Assembly (NCBI GenBank): GCA_030649735.1
Contig: JAUSFL010000042.1
Coordinates: 1 to 37,577 of the forward strand
Reading direction: 5' to 3'
DNA length: 37,577 nucleotides
From: Candidatus Iainarchaeum sp.
GTDB taxonomy: Archaea; Iainarchaeota; Iainarchaeia; Iainarchaeales; UBA10191
Below, one piece after another: positions 12,091-13,978 of this stretch; the first letter of the stretch is position 1; the number at the start of each line of letters is the position of its first letter. The notes under the pieces were generated by a model. It searched no databases and was not told the DNA's origin. It was given only the letters and a program-made list of their open reading frames with translations. Made by a program: the position numbers and the translations under genes.

Positions 12091-12114
12091 TTTTAAGCCC
12101 CAAGCGCCCTTTTA

Positions 12115-12123
12115 TTTTAAATA
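12115..12123 (+). promoter_or_regulatory. TATA box for the aspS transcript
   Basis: TTTTAAATA is centred about 27 bases before the ATG of the Asn-rich leader ORF (12146), the same spacing as for leaderless genes here. Transcription would then start at or next to that ATG and leave about 150 bases before aspS. Confidence 0.5.
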
Positions 12124-12145
12124 CTCCTTCAGCAGCAATATTATC

Positions 12146-12244
12146 ATGCAAGGCAGTTGTTCGTTAAGGGACTTTTCTGTTTTTGGTTTTAGGCCTTGCA
12201 ACGCAAACAATAATGGCAATAATAACAATAATGGGAATTGCTAG
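12146..12244 (+). CDS. Putative Asn-rich leader peptide upstream of aspS
   Basis: A 32-codon ORF from ATG 12146 to TAG 12242-12244. Residues 19-32 contain ten Asn, including runs of three (21-23) and five (25-29), with the last Asn at 31. The N-terminal half is unremarkable (MQGSCSLRDF). It is too short to be an enzyme; the Asn run suggests a leader peptide sensing Asn-tRNA. The TATA box 27 bases upstream makes leaderless translation from this ATG plausible. The end of the ORF is also the 5' arm of a hairpin that competes with pairing to the aspS ribosome-binding site. Alternatives: a non-coding leader with a chance ORF, or a small Cys/Asn-rich protein. Confidence 0.4.
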   Translation: MQGSCSLRDFSVFGFRPCNANNNGNNNNNGNC

Positions 12245-12295
12245 AATTCCCGCCATTAAAAAAACTAGTGAACTAATATTTTTTGGAGGGAATTC
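12211..12295 (+). promoter_or_regulatory. Candidate translational attenuator of aspS
   Basis: Three mutually exclusive segments are visible: 1, GGGAATT (12233-12239); 2, AATTCCC (12245-12251, with preceding G at 12244); 3, GGGAATTC (12288-12295) covering the Shine-Dalgarno region of aspS. Segment 2 pairs with 1 (7 bases, loop GCTAG containing the leader stop) or with 3 (8 bases). The 1:2 hairpin is extended by TAATGGC (12211-12217) pairing with GCCATTA (12252-12258), leaving the Asn codons as a 15-base bulge. The 1:2 form frees the ribosome site; the 2:3 form hides it. Confidence 0.45.
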
Positions 12296-12297
12296 AA

Positions 12298-13602
12298 ATG
12301 GAAAGGACAGACATCAGTAAAGCCGCAAAGAAAATAGGCCAAAAGGCATTGCTTAAAGGCTGGGTGCAAAAAGCAAGAAACCAAAGCAAGGTAAAATTTA
12401 TTATTTTGCGGGACAGCACTGGCACTATCCAAACAGTAGCAACTCCAGAACTCACGAAAAACTTTGAAGAATTCGGAAAAATTCCGGAAGAAAGCGCAAT
12501 CAGCATTCAAGGAATCATTAAAGCAGAAAAGCAAGCACCTAACGGAATAGAATTGCAGGCTGAAAGCTTTCAAATAATTTCAAAAGCCGCAGAATTGCCG
12601 ATTCCAGTAATTGAAAAGACTGGCTCTGAAACCCAATTGCCGAAACGATTGGACTGGCGAAGCATTGACTTGAGAAAGCCGGAAAACCAGGCAATTTTTA
12701 AAATACAGTCCGCATTGATTGAAGGCATGCAAGAGTGCTTGATTAAGGAAAATTTTCAGCAAGTTTTCACGCCTTGCCTTATGGGAGTTCCTTCAGAATC
12801 AGGCGCTGAACTGTTTGAAGTGAAATACTTTGAGAAAAAAGCCTTTTTGCGGCAAGACCCTCAATTGCACAGGCAATTGACAATTGCAGGCGGGATTGAA
12901 AGGCTTTACGACATTGGGCCAAGCTGGCGTGCAGAGCAATCGCACACTACAAAGCACTTGTGCGAGCACAGGACTTGCGCTGTAGAATTCGCATTCATTG
13001 AAAGCGAGCAGGACACAATGCGGGTTGAAGAGCAAGTGATAATTTCATCCTTAAAAAAAGTAAATGAAAAATGCAGTGAAGAATTAAAGCTCTTAAAGAT
13101 AGAGTTGAAAATTCCGAAAGCGCCGTTTCCAGAATTAAGGTTTCCTGAAATTTACGGCATTCTGGAAAGCAAGGGAAAAAGCATTCGCGGACAAGACTTG
13201 GATTCAGAGGCTGAAAAACTGCTTTGGGAATTCGTTCAGGAAAACTATGACAATGAATTTTATTTTTTCAACAGGTTTCCTTCAAAAATCAAGCCATTTT
13301 ATGTAATGCATGTTGACGAAGAGCCAGAGTTTGCAAGAAGCGTGGACTTGAACTGGAAAGGCCTTGAATTAAGCAGCGGCGGCCAAAGAGAACACCGTTA
13401 TGAAATCTTGATGAAGCAAGTTCAGGAATCAGGCCAAAACCCAAAAAGCCTTGAATGGTTCACTAAATTCTTCCAGTACGGAGTTCCAACACACGGCGGA
13501 TTCGCAATAGGAATTGAAAGACTGACAAAATCCTTGCTTAACTTGCCAAACATCAGGGAAGCAGTGCTGTTTCCCAGAGACACTGAAAGAATCACTCCGT
13601 AA
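12298..13602 (+). CDS. aspS: Aspartyl-tRNA synthetase, archaeal type, possibly non-discriminating
   Basis: About 434 residues from ATG 12298, preceded by GGAGGG at 12285-12290 with a 7-base spacer; the upstream in-frame TTG (12283) lies at the ribosome site itself. An N-terminal OB-fold anticodon domain (GWVQKARN, ~20-28) is followed by a class II catalytic domain with RSIDLRKPENQAIFKIQ, an FRAEQ-like SWRAEQSHTTKHL, SSGGQREHR and the motif 3 GFAIGIERL. SSGGQREHR marks AspRS rather than AsnRS. Archaeal discriminating AspRS carries Trp and Lys at two OB-fold positions (W26, K85 in Thermococcus); by alignment these are Gln24 and Pro81 here, and Pro is seen in non-discriminating enzymes. Such an enzyme also makes Asp-tRNA(Asn) for GatCAB. 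The leader region suggests expression control. Confidence 0.93.
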   Translation: MERTDISKAAKKIGQKALLKGWVQKARNQSKVKFIILRDSTGTIQTVATPELTKNFEEFGKIPEESAISIQGIIKAEKQAPNGIELQAESFQIISKAAELPIPVIEKTGSETQLPKRLDWRSIDLRKPENQAIFKIQSALIEGMQECLIKENFQQVFTPCLMGVPSESGAELFEVKYFEKKAFLRQDPQLHRQLTIAGGIERLYDIGPSWRAEQSHTTKHLCEHRTCAVEFAFIESEQDTMRVEEQVIISSLKKVNEKCSEELKLLKIELKIPKAPFPELRFPEIYGILESKGKSIRGQDLDSEAEKLLWEFVQENYDNEFYFFNRFPSKIKPFYVMHVDEEPEFARSVDLNWKGLELSSGGQREHRYEILMKQVQESGQNPKSLEWFTKFFQYGVPTHGGFAIGIERLTKSLLNLPNIREAVLFPRDTERITP

Positions 13603-13616
13603 AAGAAAGTTACAGC

Positions 13617-13970
13617 CTAATCATCAGCCAGAGGCTGGCTTTCAAGGCCTTTGTAGAATTCAAACTTTTTTCCTTTCCTTTCAGCCTTGCTTTTAACATC
13701 CAATTCAACAAAAGTCGCATTATACAACGGGCCTTCCATTTGATGCGGCCCCCAGGCCAAATAGTATTTTATCTTCACAATACTTTTGCCTTCTTTTTCA
13801 GGAATTATTTCTGCCCTGCCTTTGTTCTTATCCAAATTTACTCTGGCATTTTCCGCAGACATTACTTCAACAGGCGAGTCTTTTCCAAGCTTGCCTAGCT
13901 CAATTGTGACTTTTTCACCGGCAAAGCAAACCCCGTTTTTTCTTACAATGATTGGAAGTCCTGCGCCCAC
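13617..13970 (-). CDS. Hypothetical small protein downstream of the UMP-kinase-like gene
   Basis: A 117-residue protein, mostly beta-strand in character (GEKVTIELGKLG, GRAEIIPEKEG, IVKIKYYLAWG, ATFVELDVKS), resembling a single immunoglobulin-like or beta-sandwich domain, with one Cys. No signal peptide or membrane segment is evident. It starts 8 bases after the stop of the UMP-kinase-like gene and is likely in the same operon. It faces aspS convergently with only 14 bases between their stops. No family is recognised. Confidence 0.65.
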   Translation of the reverse strand: MGAGLPIIVRKNGVCFAGEKVTIELGKLGKDSPVEVMSAENARVNLDKNKGRAEIIPEKEGKSIVKIKYYLAWGPHQMEGPLYNATFVELDVKSKAERKGKKFEFYKGLESQPLADD

Positions 13971-13978
13971 AAAATCGC

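Follow-up and report, generated by a model that had tools for sequence, protein, structure and literature searches.

The 152-nt leader of an archaeal aspS gene may couple translation of this gene to the charging of tRNA(Asn) by way of a leader peptide with Asn codons, a reading to which we give a probability of about one-half. A conserved leader-peptide element in another family, f9, is well supported by sequence comparison, and the leader described here is probably a further case—either independent or distant. The leader lies in a stretch of DNA of 37,577 nucleotides, the window, which is contig C27 of the archaeal genome G000 (1.28 Mb in 51 contigs; 92.7% complete). The features of the leader are the following:

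12116-12123, plus strand: TATA box TTTAAATA, its first base 30 nt before ATG 12146 (from the sequence and the genome-wide spacing peak)
12146-12244, plus strand: leader ORF MQGSCSLRDFSVFGFRPCNANNNGNNNNNGNC of 32 codons with the stop TAG (from its translation; the same type of ORF occurs in four f9 genomes, G051, G068, G055, and G046)
12147-12200, plus strand: 5' hairpin TGCAAGGC/GCCTTGCA with the arms 12147-12154 and 12193-12200, -17.0 kcal/mol, with two bases of the leader ATG inside it
12200-12238, plus strand: Asn-codon tract with 10 Asn codons (from the leader ORF translation)
12211-12258, plus strand: hairpin A, formed by an outer stem TAATGGC/GCCATTA (12211-12217/12252-12258) and an inner stem GGGAATT/AATTCCC (12233-12239/12245-12251), the leader stop in its loop, -14.7 kcal/mol
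12214-12243, plus strand: hairpin TGGCAAT/ATTGCTA, which can coexist with hairpin B (from folding)
12244-12295, plus strand: hairpin B, in which GAATTCCC (12244-12251) pairs with GGGAATTC (12288-12295) and the pairing extends inwards; the minimum-energy state, predicted to hide the aspS ribosome site
12286-12290, plus strand: aspS ribosome-binding site GGAGG (from the sequence and the enrichment of GGAGG before genes)
12298-13602, plus strand: aspS, archaeal-type aspartate--tRNA(Asn) ligase of 434 aa (from NCBIfam models)

In the proposed mechanism, the transcript would start at 12146 or right beside it, and ribosomes would load directly onto its 5' end with no need of a ribosome-binding site, in the manner of the leaderless genes of G000. 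They would translate a 32-codon peptide, the last third of which consists mostly of Asn codons, and their position would determine whether the hairpin at the leader stop (A) or the one over the aspS ribosome site (B) forms. With Asn-tRNA scarce, an early pause in the Asn tract would allow hairpin A to form and would delay hairpin B, whereupon a second, tRNA(Asn)-charging AspRS would be made. Translation of the leader ORF, the translational readout, and the polarity are what we infer here, and the polarity is the weakest step of the mechanism.

Promoter, leader ORF, and hairpins of the window

The sequence-only reading had placed a TATA box at the right distance for a start at ATG 12146, and the spacing statistics agree. 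Promoter spacing and ORF rarity were counted in 770 kb of G000, taken as stretches. The first base of TTTAWAHA boxes (H = A, C, or T) peaks at -30 to -28 from the ATG at 685 ORF starts. This peak is a mark of leaderless transcripts, and the spacing of 30 nt at the window ORF falls within it. The predicted ORF of 32 codons with 10 Asn among its final 14 residues is found exactly at 12146-12244. Its peptide carries NNxN close to the end and Cys as the C-terminal residue, and the distance from ATG 12146 to the aspS start at 12298 amounts to 152 nt.

The Asn cluster of this ORF is exceptional in G000. With 10 of 14 residues, it is the highest single-residue cluster among 1653 short ORFs upstream of 409 genes, and the window ORF is the sole one with at least five Asn in its last 12 residues among the 207 ATG ORFs of 20-40 codons that follow a correctly spaced TATA-like box in the 770 kb. 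Dinucleotide-shuffled upstream regions yield fewer than 0.02 Asn clusters of at least eight per 770 kb data set; since an imperfect tandem repeat of 9 nt (CAATAATGG, 12208-12238) makes up the Asn tract, such shuffles understate the frequency of an origin by repeat expansion. Runs of five Asn codons (AAY) occur at two places in the 1.28 Mb genome, the second of which lies inside a large ORF in the Thr frame, as judged by reading of the sequence. No further copy of the leader was found genome-wide in G000, and no matching amino-acid bias was seen in its other short TATA-spaced ORFs.

The mutually exclusive hairpins of the window sit at the Asn codons and the leader stop. The segments GGGAATT (12233-12239), AATTCCC (12245-12251), and GGGAATTC (12288-12295) are all present with their two alternative pairings, as had been described, and so is the additional stem TAATGGC/GCCATTA. 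Chance pairing had been named as a concern: The three-segment arrangement arises in just 0.2% of shuffles, and a 7-nt complement of the ribosome site taken alone arises in 6%. The expectation of folding better than shuffled sequence stands for 12200-12300 (z -3.4) and falls for the whole leader (z -1.2). The ribosome site itself belongs to a type that is enriched in this genome, with GGAGG found before genes 18 times versus two times in a control window. At the other end of the leader, the stability of the 5' hairpin is exceeded by one of 45 leaderless-type 5' ends. Such a strong hairpin over the start codon would lower translation of the leader and counts against efficient leaderless initiation.

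Hairpin A has a calculated energy of -9.2 kcal/mol for its inner part and -14.7 kcal/mol in full, and hairpin B reaches about -18 to -20 kcal/mol. The latter pairs four of the five ribosome-site bases unless 12244-12250 is covered. The sequence-only reading took a stall in the Asn codons to switch aspS on, which does not hold at equilibrium: Hairpin B is more stable than hairpin A for all stall positions within the Asn tract, and the ribosome site opens only with a ribosome covering 12244-12254 (3' edge at about 12249), that is, at the last codons or the stop. A stall would switch the gene on only with the first-formed hairpin A kinetically trapped. In modelled transcription, hairpin A is the first to form, before the ribosome site is transcribed, and remains the best structure until about 12290, after which hairpin B takes over. 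The barrier from A to B is estimated at 14.5 kcal/mol for the full hairpin A and 9.8 kcal/mol for its inner part. By the usual rate estimate, the former would correspond to a time far longer than the lifetime of an mRNA and the latter to seconds.

Because equilibrium favours hairpin B, a coupling of the opposite sign is the equilibrium reading. Ribosomes finishing the leader ORF would cover 12244-12254 and open hairpin B, so that aspS would be made with enough Asn-tRNA and would fall in starvation; at equilibrium, indeed, only ribosomes at the last codons or the stop free the ribosome site. We consider this unlikely: Positive feedback is ill suited to a synthetase, a long Asn tract is not required for it, and in f9 the stop lies before hairpin A with the ribosome site not clearly hidden. 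Termination of transcription at the T6 run (12280-12285) was weighed too, with evidence neither for nor against it.

A structured leader could also be read by a protein—for example, by AspRS on its own mRNA—or by a small molecule, with the ORF idle. Autogenous binding of mRNA by a synthetase is known for E. coli thrS and yeast AspRS, and the window offers three consecutive hairpins, one of them hiding the ribosome site. Against this stand the lack of any Rfam match of the window leader, T-box family models included, and the recurrence of Asn-codon ORFs before aspS in relatives whose RNA sequence differs, which leaves this explanation the faintest chance.

AspRS type and tRNA(Asn) pathway

The product of the window aspS is supported by sequence as an archaeal-type, tRNA(Asn)-charging (nondiscriminating, ND-type) AspRS. 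The protein (P0001) scores 487.9 bits against the NCBIfam model NF003483 (cut-off 353) and 402.6 bits against TIGR00458 (cut-off 368.4). Its specificity positions are Gln24 and Pro81, which align to Trp26 and Lys85 of Thermococcus. At positions 26 and 85 of the T. kodakarensis AspRS, we take Trp/Lys to be discriminating and His/Pro in their place to be nondiscriminating. Among 29 archaeal-type AspRS whose genomic background was known, Pro occupies the second position in 10 of 10 whose genomes gave no AsnRS match and in two of 19 whose genomes gave one, some of these genomes being incomplete. No AsnRS was found in the 92.7% complete assembly of G000; gatB is present with gatA adjoining it, and gatC is tentatively placed by its position beside gatA. 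The earlier suggestion that this AspRS supplies Asp-tRNA(Asn) is, thus, in line with the two model scores, the AsnRS search, and the gatA-gatB cluster. G000 also carries a bacterial-type AspRS, which is the common type in the phylum sample (38 of 83 genomes); the archaeal-type enzyme of the window is, hence, its second AspRS.

The window aspS is set among housekeeping genes. Its neighbours Dph2 and UMP kinase are kept in G001, a genome of the same genus, where another gene of 236 aa and no aspS stands between them (window 12091-13978 compared with L096). The gene was therefore either gained in G000 or lost in G001.

Further observations concern the same pathway. The GatB of G000 has 643 aa (C44:67416-69347; L050:9416-11347, minus strand) and bears an inserted aminoacyl-tRNA editing domain (PF04073, residues 57-171) near its N-terminus; the GatB match of G001 shows a gap similar to this insert. 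For an amidotransferase, an editing domain of its own seems unusual. In addition, G000 is predicted from sequence to encode a 261-aa protein with a lone asparagine-synthase domain, which lacks a glutaminase domain and scores below the AsnB cut-offs (C50; L090:1180-1965, minus strand). In a genome labelled Euryarchaeota, genes for a YbaK-like deacylase and for AsnRS come after the gene of an AspRS closely related to that of the window (L033:2992-6127).

Leaders in family f9 and other relatives

Two genera of family f9, represented by G051 and G068, carry leader ORFs before an archaeal-type aspS: MQSLSSKKVYSITIACVNSIFNSNNTN with 27 codons in G051 and MQRTETESQILKAISLAIANAVDDNDNNIN with 30 codons in G068. 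Each is preceded by a TATA-like box whose spacing is roughly that of leaderless starts; the ORFs end NNTN and NNIN at the stop, respectively, and after the stop comes GGGCYWGCCAAGGRGC in both. No AsnRS match was obtained in either genome, and G051 carries both AspRS types, as G000 does. In the phylum sample of 83 genomes, this motif together with the Asn codon and stop before it has one more exact match, in G055, and a match with three mismatches in G046, both of family f9; matches with three mismatches occur at the background rate, and a reversed-pattern control also gives several. The G055 copy lies at the end of a 31-codon ORF (MQCEGMTFELPFGVSSSILLAAALNDNSNIN; C33; L140, L181) whose peptide ends DNSNIN, and the G046 copy at the end of a 29-codon ORF (MCMFAGIQKVRFSPQIKPVSVSTDSNNIN; C51; L142, L182) whose peptide ends DSNNIN. 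Both ORFs have TATA-like boxes 29 nt upstream by our own count and a Peptidase_S51 gene behind them. All four f9 peptides have a C-terminal Asn, and the five leader ORFs—the window and the four of f9—span 27-32 codons. The last codons of the f9 ORFs vary synonymously between AAC and AAT, which suggests selection on the peptide.

The RNA of the f9 elements features two mutually exclusive hairpins after the stop, namely A (GGGCT/AGCCC type) and B (GCCAAGG/CCTTGGT type). Across the four elements, 95.8% of cells pair and three pairs are changed on both sides, compared with at most 56% of cells with the partner slid. The observed covariation values are reached by 35-66 of 500 shuffles and, because of the low number of four sequences, are suggestive only. 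Hairpin A of f9 lies beyond the stop, and the ribosome site is not visibly covered by either hairpin. With a bacterial-size footprint assumed for the ribosome geometry at hairpin A, a ribosome early in the Asn cluster would leave hairpin A or its inner part free in both lineages, and a ribosome at the stop would block it. A covariance model of the f9 element, run over 87 genomes, recovered its four seeds and no other convincing member; among its matches of 18-23 bits, those inspected were unconvincing and lay mostly within coding sequence.

The claim that the leader is conserved in relatives, thus, holds for aspS of G051 and G068 and for the S51 gene of G055 and G046, and fails for the nearest AspRS relatives (G002, L033, and L034; 59-62% identity), where no leader of such kind was found. 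The reference-genome scan for AspRS relatives gave L033-L036, of which L035 is a distant relative and L036 is truncated at the beginning. No close relative of this AspRS was found in viral contigs and plasmids, and no leader of such kind was found upstream of 30 bacterial-type aspS genes. The f9 motif has no match in the window RNA, and the AspRS tree places G000 and G051/G068 in different clades; common descent of the leaders is, hence, not shown, and they are either ancient with losses, of two origins, or transferred.

These differences bear on a reading in which the f9 leaders are real and the window ORF arose by chance from an intergenic 9-nt tandem repeat, the window leader having no regulatory role. 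The repeat nature of the Asn tract, the lack of a common RNA motif, the start codon lying partly in the 5' hairpin, and the nearest AspRS relatives without a leader would all fit it. The exact promoter spacing and the uniqueness of the ORF in 770 kb argue against it, as do its 32 codons versus 27-31 in f9, its NNxN near the end, and its occurrence at the same gene type in the same AsnRS-less background as in f9. We regard a chance origin as rather unlikely.

The S51 genes raise a further alternative. Microcin C has a precursor that terminates in Asn, and its processed form, which inhibits AspRS, is inactivated by S51 peptidases (PMC9239234); the f9 ORFs might, accordingly, be precursor genes. 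The short ORFs would then be microcin-C-like precursors (MccA), and the gene behind them would provide self-immunity, either as MccG, an S51 peptidase, or as a second AspRS. The four f9 peptides end in Asn, as a microcin C precursor must, and a hairpin follows the stop. However, among the ORFs inspected in the window and next to the four f9 elements, none was recognised as an MccB/ThiF-like gene. The S51 proteins stay below the cut-offs of the PepE and cyanophycinase models that they match, and the window peptide has Cys as its last residue, with its gene among housekeeping genes. We judge precursor genes highly improbable here. A wider version of the leader-peptide switch can also be conceived: Archaeal leaders with Asp and Asn codons might sense the loss of AspRS products, including poisoning of the microcin C type, the bypass being a second, divergent AspRS or an S51 peptidase of the microcin-resistance type. 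We hold this extension to be decidedly doubtful.

Known systems and other short ORFs

Ribosome-mediated attenuation is a textbook bacterial mechanism and, to our knowledge, has not been described in archaea. No archaeal leader-peptide attenuator was seen among the titles obtained from the open-access literature searched, most subscription journals being outside its scope. Coupling to tRNA(Asn) charging, as proposed for the window, would share with the bacterial trp, his, and pheST attenuators a short leader ORF rich in the relevant codons and mutually exclusive hairpins. In contrast to these, the window leader is archaeal, is predicted to use leaderless initiation, and has no bacterial-type terminator and apparently a translational readout. 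With ermC-type translational attenuation it shares that the ribosome on the leader peptide would decide on the hiding of a downstream ribosome-binding site, whereas the presumed signal is tRNA charging instead of a drug and stalling would take place on a stretch of Asn codons. In Clostridium acetobutylicum, the tRNA-dependent Asn pathway is reportedly under T-box control (papers referenced in PMC4206432), a resemblance in that an AspRS/GatCAB-type pathway is controlled by tRNA charging; the T-box, however, binds tRNA directly, and the window has no T-box match. In Thermus and Deinococcus, which have GatCAB and a bacterial-type AspRS, the second enzyme, AspRS2, is an archaeal-type ND-AspRS (PMC4206432). 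G000 resembles them in having an archaeal-type ND-AspRS in addition to the bacterial-type AspRS and GatCAB and differs in that the host is an archaeon without AsnRS. We know of no leader of such kind before bacterial AspRS2 genes. A tie between leaderless leader peptides and tRNA-dependent Asn synthesis would, if true, extend the same logic to archaea with an initiation mode of their own. The claim is directly testable on five leaders with defined codons and hairpins.

Other short ORFs are found in the genus. In G000, the 24-mer AGAAGGGATYKTCGGATTCTCAGT lies near the start of the 12-codon ORFs MPSRRDLRILSF and MQARRDCRILSL (C44:10301-10324, minus strand, and C44:65404-65427, plus strand), its context being an isopropylmalate-synthase-like gene, which it precedes, and a nearby tRNA-Ile. 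A copy with two mismatches lies near tRNA-Ile in G001 (C40:1719-1742, minus strand).
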